A stretch of DNA of 32,863 nt, taken from assembly GCA_020052735.1 (NCBI GenBank), contig JAGVON010000026.1, positions 1 to 32,863 on the forward strand, in the 5' to 3' direction. The notes under the pieces are model-generated. The model saw only the letters and a list, made by a program, of their open reading frames with translations, had not been told where the DNA came from and ran no database searches. Made by a program: the position numbers and the translations under genes. Of this stretch, positions 2,387 to 32,863 are shown piece by piece; position 1 is the first letter of the stretch; each line of letters opens with the position of its first letter. This DNA comes from an archaeon (lineage in GTDB: Archaea > Micrarchaeota > Micrarchaeia > Anstonellales > Bilamarchaeaceae).

Positions 2387-4516
2387 TCACCCGTCTACAG
2401 TTTCGTTCGCGCCGCCCTCCGGCCCCAGGGCGATTTCGCCCACCGGCACCGCGAGCATCCCCGCGACCTCGCATTCCCTGAAGTACTGCTCGTCGCCCGT
2501 GAACACCGCGTTGTCAACGAAGACCACGGAGAACTCCGGCCTGGTCTGCAGCGCCGAGTACCTGAGCGTTATTATCGGCTCCTCCACGCTGTTGTAGCAT
2601 TCGCCGAGCGTGGTGCTCTGGCTGGTTATGCAGTCCCCGTCCGTCTTGTCATAGACATCCACGGCCCTCGGGGACAGCTCGCCCGCCATCTTCTGCGCGC
2701 ACGCCATCATCTCAGCGGCGGCCCCGGAGCTCACCCCCTCGGTCTCCACAAGTATGGACACGTGTTCGGAATCCGCGAGCGAAGCCCTGTATTCCGTGAA
2801 GTCCGCGTCAGAGGCCGAGCCCTTCAGGGTGAGATACGCCCCTGCCGAGACCGCGCCCGCCACGAGCAGGCCGAGCCCCAGGAAGATGAAACCCACGAAC
2901 ATCGCCCCCCTGCCCATCTTTGCCGACCTGGCGAAGAAGAACAGGAACGCGAACGTGAGCAGCGAGCCGAGCGAGAAGAACGAGAGCGCGGAAAGCATTA
3001 TGGGCGCGTATTCGGACAGGTTGCCCTTCTCCACCCGGTCCATCGGCTGCACCGCGACGGCAAGGTTCTCAACGCCCTCGTTGGTGCTCCTTGCCGCGGC
3101 CCTCAGCGGGCTGAGGTACACGCTGCCCGAGGAGACCTGCTGCACGACCGGGTCAGCCGCCGCGGTTATGTTCAGGTAATCATCCCTGAGCGCAGCGTAC
3201 CTCTCCGGGGAAAGCCCAGGGACGAAGCTGCGGTCCAGGTTGCCCTTCCTTGCGGACAGCGCCGCTGCCAGCGCCGCCTGCTCATCGTTCAGGTTGGATG
3301 TTTCCAGTATGAAGATTGCCAGGGAGGCCTCGGATTTCGCCTCCTCGGTTGAATTGTACACCTCCCACTGCACGGGTATCGCGGCGGCCAGCCGGTTCGT
3401 CTTCGCGCCCAACTCGTCAATTGATGCGTTGAGCTGCGAGAAGTTGCCTGCCGTGAGGTCCGCGTCTATCCTGGTGATGAGCGTGTCTATCCGGTTGGCG
3501 TCCGTGCTGACCTGCGAGTCCGCCACGACCTGGAGCAGCGCCCTCGCGTCCGCGGCCGTTCTCTGCCCCCTTGTTTTCAGCGGGTCATAAATGCCATGGT
3601 AATATGCGCGCGCGGCGTTGTCCGCGGCCATCAGTATCCTCGTGTTCTCGCTGGCAACCATCGCAGCGCCAATCCCCTCCGAGCCCTCCAGCCGCGCGGT
3701 CTTCTCCAGCAGCGCGTCTATTTTCGCATCCGCGTCGTCCAGGTGCGCCTCGTTTATCAGTATGTACGGGCATACGCCCAGGCAGTCGGTGCAGTGCTCG
3801 TCGGGCTTCGGCATCCTGAAGCGCGTGCTCTCCAGCTTCTCCTCGTCCGCCATCATCGCGGGTATGTAGCCCTTCATCTCGGTGAGGCTCTCCCGTATGT
3901 TCCCGCCGTCCATCCGGTCAAAAAGGAGGAATATGGCATCCGTCTTGCTCGTGAGCCCGTTGCTGGCGTATGAGAATTCCTGGACGTCCGGCATGATGTC
4001 CTCTATGTTTGAGCAGCCGATGGCATCCCCCATCTCGTCGCACAGGAAAAGCGCGGTGGTGAAGCAGTCCGTATCGTTCGTGCAGGGGAACTGCTGCAGG
4101 AAAAGCCCCATCCTGCAAACCTCCTCCTCATAGCCGACCTCCTCGTCCAGCCAGGGCAGGTTCACCACAGTGCCAGGGTAGTTGTCCCCGTTGTTCCTGC
4201 TGTCGTCGTACGCCTCAAAGTCAGCCCTCAGCGCCGCTATCTCCTCATCCGTCGGGTAATACAGGTCCGCATAATGCGCGTTCATCGCCGTCCCCACGAC
4301 CTCCGGGTCGGTGATTATGGCCCCGCTGCCGTCCAGCAGGAACGCGGGCTCCCCGTTTATGTATACGATAGTATAAGGGACCGCATCCACCACAAAAGTG
4401 TCCTGGCCGGTTATGTTCTCGCCGGGCGCGAGGTACTGCGTAAGGTCCGCGGAAAAGGCTGCGGGGAGCAGCAGTAATAAAACTATCAGAACGCTGGTGG
4501 TCGGTCGCATGGGCAA
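2387..4516 (-). CDS. Secreted/membrane protein of unknown function (signal peptide, Cys-rich N-terminal region, helical middle, TM segments, C-terminal four-Cys domain)
   Basis: N-terminal signal-like MRPTTSVLIVLLLLLPAAFSA; two hydrophobic segments near residues 530-600; TATA-like ctttataaataag upstream on the minus strand. Confidence 0.8.
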   Translation of the reverse strand: MPMRPTTSVLIVLLLLLPAAFSADLTQYLAPGENITGQDTFVVDAVPYTIVYINGEPAFLLDGSGAIITDPEVVGTAMNAHYADLYYPTDEEIAALRADFEAYDDSRNNGDNYPGTVVNLPWLDEEVGYEEEVCRMGLFLQQFPCTNDTDCFTTALFLCDEMGDAIGCSNIEDIMPDVQEFSYASNGLTSKTDAIFLLFDRMDGGNIRESLTEMKGYIPAMMADEEKLESTRFRMPKPDEHCTDCLGVCPYILINEAHLDDADAKIDALLEKTARLEGSEGIGAAMVASENTRILMAADNAARAYYHGIYDPLKTRGQRTAADARALLQVVADSQVSTDANRIDTLITRIDADLTAGNFSQLNASIDELGAKTNRLAAAIPVQWEVYNSTEEAKSEASLAIFILETSNLNDEQAALAAALSARKGNLDRSFVPGLSPERYAALRDDYLNITAAADPVVQQVSSGSVYLSPLRAAARSTNEGVENLAVAVQPMDRVEKGNLSEYAPIMLSALSFFSLGSLLTFAFLFFFARSAKMGRGAMFVGFIFLGLGLLVAGAVSAGAYLTLKGSASDADFTEYRASLADSEHVSILVETEGVSSGAAAEMMACAQKMAGELSPRAVDVYDKTDGDCITSQSTTLGECYNSVEEPIITLRYSALQTRPEFSVVFVDNAVFTGDEQYFRECEVAGMLAVPVGEIALGPEGGANETVDG

Positions 4517-23888: not shown

Positions 23889-24272
23889 ATGAGGGAAGAA
23901 ATACTCTGGTGGCTGAAGCAGGGGGAGGCGGATTTCCGCGCCTCAAAGAACTCCTTCGCCAGCAAGGACTACCACGCTAGCGTGTTTTCGGCACACCAGG
24001 CGGTTGAGAAATGCCTGAAGGCGCTCTACATCCAGAGGGAAAACACGGCGTCGCTAAGGACGCACAACCTCATAGAGCTTGGGAAACTGCTGAAAGTGCC
24101 TCCGCTGACGTTGAATTTCCTTGCAAAGCTCTCTCCGGAATATTCCCTTTCGCGTTATCCGGATGCGTCTTATGGGATTCCAGCAGAGAGGTATACGCCG
24201 GACATCGCCAGGGAATACCTGGAAGGCGCGGAAAAGGTGCTCGCATGGGTGCAATCTCAGATAAAAAAGTGA
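23889..24272 (+). CDS. HEPN-domain protein (PF05168-like)
   Basis: WLKQGEADFRASKNSFASKDYHASVFSAHQAVEKCLKALYIQRE ... RTHNL pattern. Confidence 0.88.
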   Translation: MREEILWWLKQGEADFRASKNSFASKDYHASVFSAHQAVEKCLKALYIQRENTASLRTHNLIELGKLLKVPPLTLNFLAKLSPEYSLSRYPDASYGIPAERYTPDIAREYLEGAEKVLAWVQSQIKK

Positions 24273-24556
24273 TTTCCTTTATCTCGCGGGTGAAAAAAGC
24301 ATTTGCCGCAAAAGTCATACTGTTCGGCTCCCGCGCAAGGGGGGAGCAGCTTAAGGAGAGCGACTACGACCTCCTGGTCATCTCAGAAAAGTTTGAGGGC
24401 GTTCCCCTTCGGGAGCGGCTGCAAGGGCTCTACAAAATGATGATAAATGCGCCGTTCAACGCCGACATACTCGCGCTCACCCCCAAGGAATTTGAAGTGC
24501 TTTCCCATAAATTGACGATTTACAGCGAGATACGGAAAACGGGAGTGTATGCCTAA
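24245..24556 (+). CDS. MNT-type nucleotidyltransferase paired with HEPN
   Basis: ILFGSRARGEQLKESDYDLLVIS; start MGAISDKK overlaps the HEPN 3' end. Confidence 0.88.
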   Translation: MGAISDKKVISFISRVKKAFAAKVILFGSRARGEQLKESDYDLLVISEKFEGVPLRERLQGLYKMMINAPFNADILALTPKEFEVLSHKLTIYSEIRKTGVYA

Positions 24557-25598
24557 ATCCCCCGGAGGAAAAAGTCTTCTTTTTCTGGTTTCCGCAGTAA
24601 TGATAATGGTAATATCCGCAATCGGAATCGGCTTGCTCCAGAACCAAAATTCTACTCTGCAATCCAATCCCGTTCCCGAGGGTTGCGGCCTCCTCAGGAT
24701 TTACGTAATCAACGTGAGCCAGGCGGACTCAATCCTCATAATCACTCCGCAGAACAAAACAATCCTCATAGACGCGGGCTCCAAGATGAAGCCCAACTCA
24801 TCTTCAAACGCTGTCGCATTCCTCCGCCAAATGAACATCTCCCGCATAGACCACCTCATCGCCTCCCACTACCATGAGGACCACATCGGGGGGATGCCCG
24901 CAATCTTCAACGCTTTTGAAATTGGAAAAGTTTATGACAATGGAAACTGCGGCAACTATTCCAGCGGGGTGCAGAGGGATTTCCAGCTGTATGCATCCAG
25001 ATCTGAATTCATCCACGTCTCGCAGGACACTCCCCTGCAAATAGATTCCTGCCTCTCCGAATCAAAATTAATCACTCCGTATTCCCTGCCCGGAAAATGC
25101 TTCAATTCCCGCAGCGATTCTTCCAATGAGAATGATAATTCTGTCCTTCTCCGCATAGTTTATGGGAACACCTCCTTCCTCTTCACCGGGGATTGCGAGG
25201 AAAAATGCGAAGAGGAGCTATTGGGCAAGGGAGAAAATATCCATTCCGATTTCCTCAAGGTGGGCCACCACGGCAGCGCAACCTCCTCCTCTCCCCAGTT
25301 CCTCTCCGCAGTAAATGCACAATACTACGCAATCTCCACGGACAATGTCCGCAGCATCACAGACAGGTATTTCCATCCAAGGCAAGCCCCGCTCGGAAAC
25401 ATTTATGCGAGAGGGGCAGATGCAAATTCCCTCTTCCGCACAGACCTGAACGGAAACATCGCAATAGTCTCTGATGGAAAAGCAATAAGTGCAAGCGCGG
25501 ACGCCTTTTCTCCATTGTGCGAACTCTTCAGCGGCTACTCCTCGTCCAACGTTTCTTCCTATGCGCCAATCCCCGCCCTTGCCGGAAGGTGCGGCTAG
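24549..25598 (+). CDS. Membrane-anchored or secreted ComEC-like metallo-beta-lactamase domain protein
   Basis: N-terminal TM; INVSQADSILIITPQNKTILIDAGS, SHYHEDHIGG, FTGDCE, LKVGHHGSATSSS. Confidence 0.9.
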   Translation: MPKSPGGKSLLFLVSAVMIMVISAIGIGLLQNQNSTLQSNPVPEGCGLLRIYVINVSQADSILIITPQNKTILIDAGSKMKPNSSSNAVAFLRQMNISRIDHLIASHYHEDHIGGMPAIFNAFEIGKVYDNGNCGNYSSGVQRDFQLYASRSEFIHVSQDTPLQIDSCLSESKLITPYSLPGKCFNSRSDSSNENDNSVLLRIVYGNTSFLFTGDCEEKCEEELLGKGENIHSDFLKVGHHGSATSSSPQFLSAVNAQYYAISTDNVRSITDRYFHPRQAPLGNIYARGADANSLFRTDLNGNIAIVSDGKAISASADAFSPLCELFSGYSSSNVSSYAPIPALAGRCG

Positions 25599-26809: not shown

Positions 26810-28123
26810 TCAGGGCCTTACCCACTCCCATCCCTGCAGCTGCGGCCCGACCACCAGCAGGTTATGGGTGAAAGTCCCATAGTCGCCTGCGGTCCATACT
26901 TCCGAATATGTGCCCGTCCTGGTCGTAATCGGGAAATACACATAGCAGAGCGTGCCATGCAGGGTCGCCTCGTTTATGACGGCCGCCACGTAGGCGCGGT
27001 CGTGCGTCCACAGCTCCGCCACCCCGGTATTATATGCATTTATGAACCTTGAACTGCCGCTCGGCGGCGTGACGTTCAGCACCAGGTATGCGCGTACGTC
27101 CTGGAGCGTGGCGTCATATTCCCCCGGGCCGCCATCCAGCACCCCCATTATCCCAAGGTTCCTGCATGGGACCAGCGTGACCGCGGTATTCAGGTTCGTG
27201 GGCGTCAGATCCACAATCAGCTCCTGCCCGTTGAGCGCATTGGTCATCGCCCCCCTTGCGCATGCAAGGGCGGACACGTCCAGGTATGGGGAGAGCATAA
27301 CCCTCTTGCCCACAACCCTCCTCACCGGAACCACGGCCTCGCATTCCGGGCTTCCCTCCAGCCGGGTGACCTCGGTTGAAACGGTCACGACCTGGGAGCT
27401 GCCGCACACGGGTTCGGGGCCGGTGGATGTGGCCGGCTCAATCGTTACGCTTCTCGTGCACTCGGGCGCATCCGCTTCGGTGCCGGAATCCTCTGCCTCT
27501 TCCCCATCACTGGCTTCTGATTCTGGAACATCTACAACGTCCGGAACCTCTTCCACATCCGGGGCATCAACAACATCTTCGGGGGTGTCCGGAACATCCT
27601 CCACTTCGGGCGCATCAGGCACGTCCTCCACATCTTCAACGCCCCCATCCTCCTCAGGGGCGGCATCCTCCACTGTCCCCTCATCCGGCGTTTCCACATC
27701 CTCGGCCGGGGAAACGTCCTCTGCCGCGCCATCATCTTCACTAACGTCCGCATCCGGCTCCATGTCCGCGGCAACATCCGCGTCCTGCTCCGCATCAACA
27801 TCCGGCTCATCGAAAGCTATTCCGCCGCATGCAATGGCGACAGCGAGCTCAAGCGCTACGGCAATGGGGACGAACAGCCCTCCCCTCTTCACAAAACCCG
27901 CGGGGGCTTCAACCCGCTCAACCTCCTCCCTTAAGGTTCCAGCCATTTTCTCGGTAGAATCGGCAATGCCCTTCTGCCCAACCATCCTCATCCTCGTTGC
28001 CTCAAGGAGTTTTGCATGCCTTTCCCTCGCCCTCCTCTCGTGCCTGTTCTTCGGAACGGAAGAATGCAAATCCTTTCCCGCCTCAAACCTTTTCCTTGCA
28101 AGTACCCTAATATCATTCGTCAT
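26810..28123 (-). CDS. Membrane-anchored protein: basic N-terminus, TM, acidic Asp/Glu/Pro/Val repeat stalk, unknown beta-like C-terminal domain
   Basis: LFVPIAVALELAVAIACGGIAF TM followed by VEDVEDVPDAPEVEDVPDTPEDVVDAPDVEEVPDVVDVPE; C-terminal domain shared with ORF at 32445-32861. Confidence 0.85.
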   Translation of the reverse strand: MTNDIRVLARKRFEAGKDLHSSVPKNRHERRARERHAKLLEATRMRMVGQKGIADSTEKMAGTLREEVERVEAPAGFVKRGGLFVPIAVALELAVAIACGGIAFDEPDVDAEQDADVAADMEPDADVSEDDGAAEDVSPAEDVETPDEGTVEDAAPEEDGGVEDVEDVPDAPEVEDVPDTPEDVVDAPDVEEVPDVVDVPESEASDGEEAEDSGTEADAPECTRSVTIEPATSTGPEPVCGSSQVVTVSTEVTRLEGSPECEAVVPVRRVVGKRVMLSPYLDVSALACARGAMTNALNGQELIVDLTPTNLNTAVTLVPCRNLGIMGVLDGGPGEYDATLQDVRAYLVLNVTPPSGSSRFINAYNTGVAELWTHDRAYVAAVINEATLHGTLCYVYFPITTRTGTYSEVWTAGDYGTFTHNLLVVGPQLQGWEWVRP

Positions 28124-28199
28124 GTTGTTATATACGGTCTTTAATGTTTAAAAACCTTCCCTAACCCACCAAACTCAAAAAACGCAATCTTTAAATATA

Positions 28200-28228
28200 T
28201 TCACTTACTGAATTATTCAGTAGGTGAA
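28200..28228. promoter_or_regulatory. Near-perfect 13-bp inverted repeat upstream of the ATPase gene (candidate operator)
   Basis: TTCACTTACTGAA-TTA-TTCAGTAGGTGAA (12/13 matched); TATA-like tttaaatatat at 28190-28200. Confidence 0.7.
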
Positions 28229-28232
28229 TGCT

Positions 28233-29603
28233 ATGAGATTTATCAACCGCGAAGCGGAACTGAAGGAACTCAGGGAGATAGAGGAACTGTCAAGGAAGAA
28301 GCTTTTCGTAATCGCAATCTACGGCCTCAGGAGGGTCGGCAAGACCAGGCTCATCCTGGAATTCCTGAAGGGCAGGGGGATGTATTTTTTCGTAAACAAG
28401 AACAAGTCATCAGCCGACCTGCTCGGCGAGTACCAGCAGATACTCAGGATGAACGGGGTGCTGGGGGAGCTGGAAACTGTGGATTCCTGGGACAAATTCT
28501 TCCAGGCGGTCATGGCGAGGAAGACGCCCCCCATGGTGTTTGACGAGTTCCAGAACTTCGGTTCCGTGGAGCCTTCCGTATTCGGGATGATGCAGAAGGG
28601 CATAGACCTTAATGAGGATGAGCCGGGCCTCATAATCCTTTCCGGTTCGCTTATCGGCCTCATGAAAAAGCTTTTCGAGGATTCCGGGGAACCGTTGTAT
28701 GGGAGGATAAAAAAGGGCAGGAAGCTGGAGCCGCTTTCCCTCAAGTCCTGCCTGGAGATTGGGAAGGAGCTGAAGCTGGGGAAAAAGGACCTTATGGAAG
28801 CCTATTTTGTGTTCGGGGGCTATCCAAAGTATTATGTGGCCATTGAGGATTTCGGGCTCCGGGGCAGGACTTCGGAAGAAATCCTGCAGGGCCTGCTCCT
28901 TGCCAAGGACGCGCCTCTTGAGGACGAGGCCAACAGCATAATCTCGCAGGAATTCGGCGCCAGGGGCGGGACATACTACTCCATTCTTGAGGCGATAGCC
29001 ATGGGCAACAACACGCTCTCCGGCATCGCGGGCTATCTGAACACGCCCATGACCTCCATAACGCGCCAGGTCAGGGAACTGAAGGAACATTTCGAATTGA
29101 TAGAAGTGGAGTCCCCATATATCGGCAAGCGCGGCATCTACCGCATCAGGCATCCTCTCCTGGAGTTCTGGTTCTCGCACATATACAGGAACTATTCGGA
29201 CTATGCTGCGCGCAATCCGGAATTCATGAAGAAACTGGAGGGTGGGCTTAATTCCGCATACGGGCGCGCTTTTGAGAGGGTCGCGCTGGAATTCGTGGCG
29301 TCCAGGCTCGGGCTGGAGAGGGTGGGGCGGCAGTGGGGAAAGATCGCCGGTGCGCAAAAGGGCGAGAACGCCTACGAGATTGACATAATGGGCGAAAAGG
29401 CCGGGGAGAAGTATGCATTTGAATGCAAATGGAGGGATATGGGCTATTCCGAAGCCATGCAGGCCATCAAGGGGCTTGATGAGAAAACAAAGCATGTGGG
29501 CATTCCGGGGAAGGCAAGGCTTGGGATTGTGGCGATGAAGCTGCATGAAAAGGAGCGGCTCCGGTCCGGTGGCTATCTGGCTTATGACCTGGATGATTTC
29601 TGA
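28233..29603 (+). CDS. Archaeal ATPase (ATPase_2/DUF234 type)
   Basis: FINREAELKELREIEE, IYGLRRVGKTRLILEF Walker A, PPMVFDEFQNF Walker B, GGYPKYY, C-terminal nuclease-like YEIDIMGEKAGEKYAFECKW. Start ATG 28233 just after the palindrome (ORF open from 28224). Confidence 0.9.
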   Translation: MRFINREAELKELREIEELSRKKLFVIAIYGLRRVGKTRLILEFLKGRGMYFFVNKNKSSADLLGEYQQILRMNGVLGELETVDSWDKFFQAVMARKTPPMVFDEFQNFGSVEPSVFGMMQKGIDLNEDEPGLIILSGSLIGLMKKLFEDSGEPLYGRIKKGRKLEPLSLKSCLEIGKELKLGKKDLMEAYFVFGGYPKYYVAIEDFGLRGRTSEEILQGLLLAKDAPLEDEANSIISQEFGARGGTYYSILEAIAMGNNTLSGIAGYLNTPMTSITRQVRELKEHFELIEVESPYIGKRGIYRIRHPLLEFWFSHIYRNYSDYAARNPEFMKKLEGGLNSAYGRAFERVALEFVASRLGLERVGRQWGKIAGAQKGENAYEIDIMGEKAGEKYAFECKWRDMGYSEAMQAIKGLDEKTKHVGIPGKARLGIVAMKLHEKERLRSGGYLAYDLDDF

Positions 29604-29653
29604 TTGCCGAAAGCCTTATTAGGATGCGCGAAGGCATATTATAGGTGGCGAAT

Positions 29654-30655
29654 ATGGCATCCAAAAAGCCAGAACTCAAAGCTCATGGCGAACCGCACGC
29701 TCCAGAGCCACAAACCCCTGAAAAGAAAGGCAAGCCGTTTGCCCGTGGCAAGGGGGCGGTGGACGAAGGGAGGAGAGGCTTCCTTCGCTCAGTTTCAGGA
29801 AGGCACGGGGCCGAAAGAAACGAAACTACTGAAGAGCAGCCCTCGGGCCGCGCAGACATGGGAAGGAGAAAGTTCCTTGGCATTGTTGCCGGAGGGGCGG
29901 CTGCGGCTGCCTTGGGCATAAAAGGAAAGAAGGCGCGGGCTGATGAAACTGCTGAGGCGACAAGGGTTGCTTCTGCGGAAACCCCCAATGCGAGGGGGCA
30001 CGCGGAGCCTTCTGTTGGAGGTGTACCCGGGCAAGCATCTCTGAACGGCAGATCTGTTGAGATAACTAACACAGAACCGATTCCGGTTTCTTCTGAAGAA
30101 TTTAAACGGGATTATGCATATATGTTTGATAATAGAAATGCAACTGTTGTGGTTCTCCCCACGCCGGGTACACATACGTACGACGCAATGGATACAACTG
30201 TGGGTGATTGGGAGATAAGAATTGTGCGCGATGTAGGGAGCTCGCAGTGCATCTATCTGAAAAATTCTGCCTTGAACTATGAAACAGAATTAGATGGGTT
30301 GGACGGCGGAAAGGCAGTCTTGCTTCCCTTTCCTGAAAGTGAATACGCTAAAGGTCCGATGCTTGCCATAGTATTTTCTTATATGTCAGTGATGTATTTC
30401 TATAATAAAGTCACGCAGGAAGTTACAGTAGATATTGTTTCACACCAAAACTTCTTTGGAGCACCCCCCAGGATAGGAACGGATGTATTCCAGAATGAGC
30501 CATACATTGTTCTCGCTCCGGACGGCTCTTTGACTTCCGATAGCGATATGAAACCTGGAACGCGCTTCCTACAATATGCTCTGCTTGCGACTACAATGAG
30601 CAGAAATGGCGGCGGCCCCGCACCCTCTGGAGCTATATTTGAAAGGAGAGATTAG
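29654..30655 (+). CDS. Tat-signal-containing secreted protein of unknown function
   Basis: GRRKFLGIVAGGAAAAALG twin-arginine signal; ORF open from GTG 29645. Confidence 0.8.
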   Translation: MASKKPELKAHGEPHAPEPQTPEKKGKPFARGKGAVDEGRRGFLRSVSGRHGAERNETTEEQPSGRADMGRRKFLGIVAGGAAAAALGIKGKKARADETAEATRVASAETPNARGHAEPSVGGVPGQASLNGRSVEITNTEPIPVSSEEFKRDYAYMFDNRNATVVVLPTPGTHTYDAMDTTVGDWEIRIVRDVGSSQCIYLKNSALNYETELDGLDGGKAVLLPFPESEYAKGPMLAIVFSYMSVMYFYNKVTQEVTVDIVSHQNFFGAPPRIGTDVFQNEPYIVLAPDGSLTSDSDMKPGTRFLQYALLATTMSRNGGGPAPSGAIFERRD

Positions 30656-31519
30656 ATGCCAGTACCAGTAGGAGAACAGAACTCTTCTAAGTTATCCCCA
30701 GAAGTAAAAGCCAAGTTAGAAACTCTCCAAGCAACTCTTGGTCCCCAAACCCTCACCGAAGCCCTCGGAACTCCGGCAGCAGAAAGAACACTAGAAACGG
30801 CACTTACAAACAATGATTCACAAACAATCCAAGGACTTAGAAGATATGTAGAACTCTCAAGGCTTCCGCTCACAGACGCCCAAGAAGGTTTAATGGCAGG
30901 CGCACGCCTGCAACTGGAAAATGAAAACAATTCGGGCTTCCAAGAAGGCGTGGCAGCGGTCTCTGCATTCAATTCCGAAGTGTTCCGGTCCGCAACGGAG
31001 GGCATGTCCGTTAATATGCAGATGAAGTTCGCGCAGTTCTGGGTGGACAATGTCAACTTTGACAATTACGCCCAGTTGTCCTACGACAGGCAACTGCAAA
31101 CCGCTTCCCAGGTGCTTAATTCTTTCAACACACAAGAGGGGACAGGTTGGGCTCAAACCCAGATAACTAATATAGCCGCCGCCATGGTAACCACAATAGC
31201 CGGGGAACTCAGGGGCGCGGACCTGAAAACTATGCAGGAGGTATGGGCGGCAAGGAACATGGACGAGTTGCGCGCAGCCGCCACATACCTGTCCTTCGCA
31301 GAGGGAAATGCGCTTACCGCCTTCGTTGAAAGCTCTGATGCCGGCTCTGCTTCGGATGCCGCAACAGTGGCGGCAGAGCAGGTGATTCTGGGAATGCTGG
31401 ACATCCTCCGCCAAGACCAAGAATTATCAAAAGACCAAAAGGAAAAGCTAGACAAGATAATAGAGGAAGAGGAGGAAAAGAAGGAAGAAGAGAAAGAAAG
31501 GCGTGAGGAGCATGACTGA
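30656..31519 (+). CDS. Predicted helical protein of unknown function with charged Glu/Lys tail
   Basis: ATG immediately follows the stop of the upstream gene; 287 aa; C-terminal IIEEEEEKKEEEKERREEHD. Confidence 0.8.
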   Translation: MPVPVGEQNSSKLSPEVKAKLETLQATLGPQTLTEALGTPAAERTLETALTNNDSQTIQGLRRYVELSRLPLTDAQEGLMAGARLQLENENNSGFQEGVAAVSAFNSEVFRSATEGMSVNMQMKFAQFWVDNVNFDNYAQLSYDRQLQTASQVLNSFNTQEGTGWAQTQITNIAAAMVTTIAGELRGADLKTMQEVWAARNMDELRAAATYLSFAEGNALTAFVESSDAGSASDAATVAAEQVILGMLDILRQDQELSKDQKEKLDKIIEEEEEKKEEEKERREEHD

Positions 31520-31736
31520 AAGCAGGTTCTCTTTGATTGCGGACGCGGTGCCGGGCGGGTTCTTCGCCAGCGTGGGCTACTCAGGCGACTCAAAAATCCT
31601 TGGAGAGATGCTCACAGGAGTGAGGAAATACGACGCAAAGAGGATAAAAAGAATCTTCGCAGAAAACCCTAATCTTGCAAGGAAAGCAGCCAACTTTTTC
31701 ATAAACGCCGCGGATGGGAAGTTCAGGGGCATATAA
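31503..31736 (+). CDS. Small protein of unknown function
   Basis: Overlaps the upstream gene (ATG at 31512 or GTG at 31503); 74-77 aa. Confidence 0.65.
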   Translation: MRSMTESRFSLIADAVPGGFFASVGYSGDSKILGEMLTGVRKYDAKRIKRIFAENPNLARKAANFFINAADGKFRGI

Positions 31737-31803
31737 AAGAAGGGTTCCGTTGTCCTCCTGAGGATTACTGCTCTTTTATAAGCGCAGAATCACCGTGCCA
31801 CCC

Positions 31804-32355
31804 ATGGCACCTACGGAAAGAACGGAGAGAATTCTGGTGATTTCCGCCCACACGCCTGCGAAGAAGGCGCCTTTTTCCGAGCGGCATCCCCTGATTGCCG
31901 GATTTGGAAGGGGCATCGCCGCAGGCATCTTTGTGCTCGGTGCATCCTGCATGTTGATGGAAAGGCCCCCGCAAGCGGCAAGGGTGCCTTCCGGCCTGAT
32001 GCCCGCATTCAGGAATCCGGAACCGCAGAGGGGGTTGCCTCCCGTTGAGAGCAGGGCGCCCCGCGCCCCTGCCGGCGTCATAGTAGTGCCTGTAGCCGCT
32101 CCAGTCCCTGCCAACCCGCTGGCGTTCCGTCCATCGGTTCCTACCATAGAGTCCCCCGGGGTTAATTTGATGCTGGATGTTTCTGGCCCGGCTCCGGCCC
32201 AGGTGGCGCCTTTCATCCCCATCTATGGCGATGGCTCATTCTCGATAGGCATAGGTGTCCAGGGCAACCCGCAGAGCATAGACCACAGCCCGAACCCCGA
32301 GCCGGGTCCGTGGTCGGTCGGTCCGATGGGCACGTTTGACATTTCGGACCGCTGA
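31804..32355 (+). CDS. Membrane-anchored Pro-rich protein of unknown function
   Basis: Hydrophobic LIAGFGRGIAAGIFVLGASCMLM then Pro-rich exported-looking region; TATA-like cttttataag ~25-30 nt upstream. Confidence 0.65.
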   Translation: MAPTERTERILVISAHTPAKKAPFSERHPLIAGFGRGIAAGIFVLGASCMLMERPPQAARVPSGLMPAFRNPEPQRGLPPVESRAPRAPAGVIVVPVAAPVPANPLAFRPSVPTIESPGVNLMLDVSGPAPAQVAPFIPIYGDGSFSIGIGVQGNPQSIDHSPNPEPGPWSVGPMGTFDISDR

Positions 32356-32444
32356 GCAAAATCCGCAACTCTTTATTCCTTTTTCTTCTCTCCAGCGGAA
32401 AACCTACACTTAAAGGAAAGGAAGAAACAATAGAGTAAGAGAAC

Positions 32445-32863
32445 CTAAGGCCTTACCCACTCCCATCCCTGCAACTGCGTCCCATCACCGGACAGCACCG
32501 GGTTGAACGTGAAGGTTCCCCCATCCACAGTCCAGACCTCCCCGAAGCCGGCGGTCCTTGTGTTTATCGGGGCGTACACATAACATAGTGATGTGTGCCA
32601 CGTAGCGAAATCTATGTCAAACGCAACATATCCGCGGTCGCCTGTCCATACTTCCGCGACTCCGGTATCGCGTGGGCTCAAGAGTCTAGAGGATCCACTG
32701 GGGGGTCTCACCCGCAACGTTATCTCATATGGCCATGGAACATCCTGAAATTCAGCATCATATTCCGCAACCCCTCCATCCAGTACCCCACCTGTGCTCA
32801 TATTGAACTGGCACGGCACAACCGTAATCGCCGTATTGAAATCCGTAGGCGTCAAATCCACAA
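32445..32863 (-). CDS. Partial CDS: second copy of the unknown C-terminal domain (continues beyond window)
   Basis: DLTPT(D/N)(F/L)NTA(I/V)T(V/L)VPC ... PPSGSSR ... LCYVY.PI.TRT ... QLQGWEWVRP shared with ORF 26810-28123. Confidence 0.85.
   Translation of the reverse strand, partial: VDLTPTDFNTAITVVPCQFNMSTGGVLDGGVAEYDAEFQDVPWPYEITLRVRPPSGSSRLLSPRDTGVAEVWTGDRGYVAFDIDFATWHTSLCYVYAPINTRTAGFGEVWTVDGGTFTFNPVLSGDGTQLQGWEWVRP

Follow-up and report, generated by a model that had tools for sequence, protein, structure and literature searches.

What is encoded at the right-hand end of the 32,863-nt window analyzed here, where a group of genes lies between two genes for a predicted exported domain, denoted WEWVRP? 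The window is one entire contig (C15) of a draft micrarchaeal genome (1.09 Mb, 112 contigs, 88.4% complete). The initial annotation described this part of it as a discrete accessory island, bracketed by the two WEWVRP copies and comprising an ATPase, a twin-arginine translocation (Tat) signal protein and several proteins of no recognized family, and proposed a lineage-specific surface system with diversified tips. With moderate confidence, we favor a genus-specific surface system that is encoded by at least three paralogous and partly shuffled cassettes, this region being one of them; the WEWVRP and membrane-anchored proteins would be exposed on the outside, with the helical proteins as their partners. 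To our knowledge, it is largely unknown how tiny DPANN archaea recognize and hold their hosts, and genus-specific surface genes are natural candidates for this recognition.

The window was compared with contigs C6, C66 and C89 of the source genome (G000), and profile searches were performed across 84 genomes of the order, including five species of the source genus. The closest named relative of the source genome, Candidatus Micrarchaeota archaeon USDE_metabat.57 (JAKQHW01), is the sister species G003, with a 71%-identical match on a 10,211-bp contig.

A multi-copy, genus-specific family

The two WEWVRP genes of the window (Table 1) are homologous as annotated, with all the motifs originally listed: the C-terminal domains share 61% identity over 138 residues, with 60 or more invariant positions (E=2.2e-44; profile E=9e-70). 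Their 3′ ends are also alike at the DNA level, with 33 identities in a 35-base tract (near 26813-26847 and 32449-32483), but beyond this tract no DNA match between the two was detected at a blastn E below 1e-3. Over the 133 shared codons, the synonymous divergence (dS) is about 2.9, so that synonymous sites are nearly saturated and the two copies are old duplicates. Recombination between them, one of the original suggestions, is accordingly unlikely, given that the 35-bp tract is the only near-identical segment.

The copy at the contig end shows 75-78% DNA identity to the copies on C66 and C89 (dS 0.69-0.78), and among these three genes dS is 0.65-0.78 and the nonsynonymous divergence (dN) 0.11-0.21. 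Between the closer copies, dN/dS is about 0.17-0.27, which indicates purifying selection, and even in the most variable stretch of the protein (residues 81-120 of the C66 copy) dN remains below dS. These values give no sign that positive selection has diversified the tips.

The source genome carries at least four C-terminal domain copies, two on C15 and one each on C66 and C89, and the N-terminal half of a further gene on C6; with the exception of the gene at 26810-28123, every one of these is truncated by a contig end. The picture of an island bracketed by two copies therefore does not hold, since further copies lie on three other contigs and the apparent right edge is the end of the contig. 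Comparison of the ends of the four contigs revealed no overlap of the kind expected from assembly, the sole match being 19 homologous bases between the ends of C66 and C15. In three genomes of the genus, contigs break off within or at genes for WEWVRP, helical or anchored proteins (C6, C15, C66 and C89 of G000; C63 of G002; C12 of G004), a possible sign of repeats or of variation between strains at these sites.

Outside the source genome, the order-wide search yielded a single WEWVRP copy, in G003 (E=4e-31); the family is thus found in two of the 84 genomes, both of the same genus, and the other 82 gave no match. Pattern scans of IMG/VR and GTDB-220 and searches of plasmids were likewise negative, including the scan of named genomes with the WEWVRP alignment, which relied on strict peptide patterns and may not cover the source genome itself and its nearest relatives. 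In agreement with the initial annotation, no protein of this region other than the ATPase has a family match in Pfam, NCBIfam or PHROGs.

The 437-aa WEWVRP protein consists of a basic N-terminal tail of ~82 aa, a 17-residue hydrophobic segment (83-99) that ends in Cys99, an acidic stalk of 121 aa (53 Asp and Glu), and the C-terminal domain (222-437), in which four cysteines align between the source species and G003. The tail has a conserved sequence of its own (MTxDIRxL...NRxE+R), and the first 153 bases of the C15 and C6 genes are 90% identical (dS 0.32 over codons 1-40). Conservation extends upstream of the gene: the region TTTAAACATTAA...TATATAACAACATG is largely retained even in G003, and positions 28124-28170 are likely to be a promoter with a short leader or none.

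The cysteine that closes the N-terminal hydrophobic segment, as in lipoproteins, is present in the WEWVRP proteins of C15 (AVAIAC99), C6 (AVALAC101) and G003 (VAAGC107) and likewise in other anchored proteins, but the basic n-region, roughly 5-30 aa in lipoproteins, spans about 82-91 residues here. In acidic-stalk lipoproteins, a hydrophobic segment with a terminal Cys is joined to a folded domain by a linker rich in Asp, Glu, Val and Pro. The WEWVRP proteins share this layout and differ in the ~82-residue N-region with its conserved sequence and in matching no family.

The surroundings of the WEWVRP genes are partly conserved. In G003, the gene occupies the orthologous site, flanked on one side by a divergently transcribed beta-helix-like repeat gene and on the other by two more anchored-protein genes; next come the thioredoxin/multi-transmembrane and adenine deaminase genes that the window also contains. 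The N-terminal half on C6 is likewise divergent from a gene for a 1,900-aa NosD/beta-helix protein. The site beside the thioredoxin/multi-transmembrane gene therefore looks ancestral for WEWVRP; in other genera of the family, the latter gene has other neighbors. The neighbor of WEWVRP in C6 and, judging by its appearance, that in G003 are NosD-like right-handed beta-helix proteins (Pfam NosD, Beta_helix), which look exported too but are unrelated in sequence to the WEWVRP domain. One of the proteins encoded between the WEWVRP and thioredoxin-like genes of G003 (L027:3756-4667, contig C63) is anchored and contains a zinc-peptidase-like HELTH motif without a Pfam match.

Paralogous cassettes and probable exchange of their parts

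The helical protein, the small overlapping open reading frame (ORF) and the Pro-rich anchored protein are all present as described. In the window, the genes for an anchored protein with an AYMFD domain, the helical, the small and the Pro-rich anchored protein follow one another and run tail-to-tail with the contig-end WEWVRP gene. The operon on C66 encodes an anchored protein, a helical protein (its frame apparently split), a small protein, a second AYMFD-domain protein and a big helical protein, and that on C89, the start of which is cut off, encodes a helical, a small and a big helical protein; both converge on a WEWVRP gene. Sequence similarity links the corresponding parts, namely the anchored proteins of C15 and C66 (E=9e-9), the N-termini of the Pro-rich protein and the C66 anchored protein (E=3e-6), and the helical proteins of C15 and C89 (E=2e-18). 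The big helical proteins of C66 and C89 are only weakly similar (E=5e-4) but have the same tail.

The intervening genes are thus syntenic elsewhere, in three paralogous cassettes of the source genome and, as an anchor-helical pair, in G003, where a gene for an anchored protein on contig C32 is directly followed by one for a fused helical-small protein; on this point, the initial proposal stands. The same fusion is found in G004, in which the C-terminal part of the helical protein is 56% identical to the C15 small protein (E=4e-23). The helical family was detected in four of the five species of the genus, that is, in four of the 84 genomes, with no match elsewhere in the order. The AlphaFold2 (AF2) model of the helical protein is all-alpha, with a predicted local distance difference test score (pLDDT) of 64. 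A domain of ~60 residues (GD...EWxxFWTxERxxAF) repeats in the helical and small proteins of C66 and C89 and in the big helical protein of C66, which suggests an interaction module; its loci are L014:918-1441 and L015:1480-2944, and it was seen nowhere else convincingly in 40 related genomes. The C66 helical gene is split over two frames (L015 3384-3938 and 2750-3523; locus 2750-3938), by either decay or an assembly error.

The exchange of cassette parts is supported by a relic and by the anchor segments. Where the big helical genes of C66 and C89 converge on the WEWVRP gene, the junction is conserved near the TAAGGCCTTA/KGKEETIE block. In the window, bases 32412-32438, immediately downstream of the WEWVRP copy at the contig end, match exactly the end of the C89 big helical gene (AAAGGAAAGGAAGAAACAATAGAGTAA), which is most simply explained by replacement of a big helical gene with the Pro-rich gene at this junction. 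N-terminal anchor segments are also common to proteins with differing bodies. The initial suggestion of reshuffling thus has support in this form, although not through the two WEWVRP copies of the window.

The assignment of the AYMFD protein to the Tat pathway fared less well. The product of ORF 29645 does contain a twin-arginine motif (GRRKFLGIVAGGAAAAALG; RRKFLG, of the RRxFLG form) ahead of a hydrophobic segment that starts at residue 77, but TatC (PF00902) was found in none of the five genus members, whereas 11 of 14 controls gave a hit; the source genome being 88% complete, this does not prove absence. Tat export is thus unsupported. Another Micrarchaeote, Mia14, is reported to carry Tat genes (PMC5498576), so that the system may have been lost in the source genus.

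Table 1. Features of the right-hand part of the window.
Position	Strand	Feature	Remarks	Basis
26810..28123	-	Full-length WEWVRP gene	437 aa	ORF and family copies
28124..28170	-	Upstream DNA of the full-length WEWVRP gene (TTTAAACATTAA..CCGTATATAACAACATG)	Conservation extends to C6 and G003	Alignment
about 28199..28229		Palindrome ATTCACTTACTGAATTATTCAGTAGGTGAAT	Just upstream of the likely ATG 28233; likely ATPase operator; same motif at orthologues in other genera	
28233..29603	+	ATPase_2 and DUF234 protein	Likely start ATG 28233, not GTG 28224	
29645..30655	+	Anchored protein with AYMFD domain	336 aa; both N-tail and body have homology to the anchored protein of C66; RRKFLG motif	
30656..31519	+	Helical protein	No signal peptide; genus-specific family (C15, C66, C89, G002, G003, G004)	
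31512..31736	+	Small ORF	8-nt overlap with the helical gene	
31795..32355	+	Pro-rich anchored protein	186 aa (33 Pro); N-terminal HxPxKxxPFSxRHP, hydrophobic segment and Cys52 also seen in the anchored protein of C66	
32412..32438	+	27-bp block coding KGKEETIE-stop	Tail relic of a big helical gene; no intact ORF leads in	
32445..32863	-	Second WEWVRP gene, C-terminal 138 codons	Cut by the contig end; nearer to the C66 and C89 copies than to 26810-28123	

The ATPase gene does not belong to the cassette

ORF 28233-29603 encodes a P-loop ATPase_2 domain (PF01637, E=2.3e-13, 50.9 bits versus a cut-off of 33.2) and a C-terminal DUF234 domain (PF03008, E=3.6e-10, 40.6 bits versus a cut-off of 22.5), and by both belongs to the ATPase_2/DUF234 archaeal ATPases; the likeness concerns this gene alone, its relatives being located away from the cassette. 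The cassettes of C66 and C89 contain no ATPase, and orthologues with the same palindrome occur elsewhere in several genera, so that a part of the ATPase in the surface system is rejected.

The palindrome noticed in the initial annotation is present, and its role as an operator of the ATPase gene is likely. Orthologues, which are closer in other genera (67% and 66%) than in the same genus (62%), bear the same palindrome, approximately TATTCAnTTAnTGAATwATTCAnTwGGTGAATA, beside a TATA-like box. The paralogues in the order have different palindromes, a strong palindrome being present at 9 of 20 ATPase genes versus 2 of 114 controls (Fisher p=2.7e-7, although related genes do not count as entirely independent). 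DUF234-type ATPase genes of Micrarchaeota often have a strong palindrome in the stretch from the TATA-like box to the start codon, and its sequence varies by subfamily (window 28199-28229; relatives L032, L038, L040, L041, L047 and L051). This pattern suggests that each DUF234-type ATPase regulates itself via a private operator; a literature search found no paper that states this. Together, the palindromes and the closer orthologues in other genera point to an independent, self-regulated, horizontally moving gene.

Proposed role and alternative explanations

Of the initially proposed surface system, what remains is lineage-specific, anchored, exported-looking proteins of unmatched families; what falls away is the ATPase and the discrete island. 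In the model that we favor, each cassette operon encodes a signal-less helical and a small protein, usually with an anchored exported protein first, and a variable last gene, for the Pro-rich anchored protein in the window and a big helical protein elsewhere, tail-to-tail toward the WEWVRP gene. The WEWVRP and anchored proteins would be inserted in the membrane N-in/C-out, with the long basic tail in the cytosol and the acidic stalk holding a disulfide-stapled beta domain outside the cell; the ectodomain is probably disulfide-rich, and the helical partner probably cytosolic. Within the cytosol, the helical proteins would serve as adaptors or scaffolds bound to the anchored proteins, and the outside domains would either contact another cell or belong to the envelope. 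The repertoire would arise by duplication and exchange of cassette parts, not by point diversification alone.

The analogy to other DPANN archaea makes host contact a plausible role and host interaction a reasonable guess (PMC5498576; PMC6142677). Mia14 is described as having strain-specific secreted surface proteins with PKD, Kelch or YVTN domains that have been proposed to function in cell-cell contact (PMC5498576). The likeness lies in lineage-specific exported proteins of a host-dependent Micrarchaeote; the difference is that these domains are unmatched in the cassettes and that no helical-partner cassette is described in the passages considered (PMC5498576). Searches of Pfam and NCBIfam for S-layer, PKD, beta-propeller or other known surface domains in the WEWVRP, anchored and helical proteins gave no match. 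The families are new, although lineage-specific surface proteins of small symbiotic archaea are already known as a kind. A more specific and speculative version, which we regard as quite unlikely, is a genus-specific, membrane-spanning contact system of receptors, each with a conserved cytosolic tail, an exchangeable ectodomain and a cytosolic helical partner, the repertoire of which is renewed by exchange of cassette parts at short conserved junctions, a form of surface variation by cassette shuffling in DPANN archaea.

Several observations weigh against a surface contact system. Export is predicted only, because the ~82-aa N-region far exceeds the size of an ordinary signal peptide. The AF2 model of the WEWVRP domain is all-beta but of low confidence (pLDDT 42) and was not used for structural claims, profile searches against PDB gave no match, and the fold search with the helical model returned nothing below E=0.1, that is, no confident match; adhesion is without support from any structure or family match. 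The genome is a fragmented metagenome-assembled genome in which C66 and C89 are short contigs of uncertain binning, yet their WEWVRP copies resemble those of C15. Finally, the tie between the two halves of the cassette rests on one genome, because in G003 the anchor-helical pair and the WEWVRP gene are on separate contigs.

The alternative that survives best, although we consider it rather unlikely, is that the anchored proteins have a structural role in the envelope and bind no dedicated partner; they would form a coat or cell-shape system that is lineage-specific and patchy, with the helical proteins as its cytosolic scaffold. The acidic stalks, the purifying rather than positive selection, the several anchored proteins per cassette and the giant beta-helix surface proteins in the neighborhood all agree with this possibility, as do the strain-specific secreted surface proteins described for Mia14 (PMC5498576). 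The failure to find WEWVRP in three of the five members of the genus would, however, be odd for an essential coat, although these genomes are about 85% complete.

It is distinctly unlikely that a genus-specific mobile element or virus left the cassettes behind as its cargo or remains, with the duplicates produced as it moved and no role on the host surface. Their multiple copies, the contig breaks in most of them, the GC dip to 47% at 30-31 kb, the broken-looking C66 helical gene, the relic at 32412 and the mobile-type distribution of the ATPase could be read in this way. Searches of PHROGs, IMG/VR, plasmids and viral folds (BFVD) were nevertheless all without a match, and a viral or plasmid origin is rejected on this ground; no integrase, capsid or replication gene was seen in the cassettes, WEWVRP keeps its neighbor between species, the anchor-helical pair recurs in the sister species and dN/dS is well below 1. 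Contact-dependent antagonism or immunity, with the outside domains as effectors or receptors and the small signal-less proteins as antidotes, would account for the compactness of the operons and the overlap of their genes, for the variable parts of the paralogous cassettes and for the small partner proteins, but is highly improbable given that the cassette proteins show no toxin, nuclease, peptidase or defense signature and that the fusion of helical and small proteins in the sister species argues against an antidote.

The locus shows several orphan families traveling together, a sister species with the parts apart and a rearrangement caught with its relic in place. If the proteins are indeed surface-exposed contact factors, host choice in Micrarchaeota becomes directly testable; if not, the region is a useful warning that what looks like an island between repeats may consist of a multi-copy family and a mobile ATPase that has nothing to do with it.

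Other features of the window and related genomes

In G002, an intein (Pfam Intein_splicing, E=1e-23) that contains a LAGLIDADG endonuclease interrupts the gene for glucosamine-6-phosphate synthase (GlmS) on contig C63 (L115:810-4031); the gene of the sister genome G004 is uninterrupted. Positions 23889-24556 of the window encode a HEPN-domain protein (Pfam E=5e-26), followed by a frame that by eye resembles a minimal nucleotidyltransferase, beside tRNA-Arg; the two are likely to be a HEPN-MNT toxin-antitoxin pair. The protein encoded at 24549-25598 has a metallo-beta-lactamase fold and an N-terminal hydrophobic segment, and might be an exported hydrolase.

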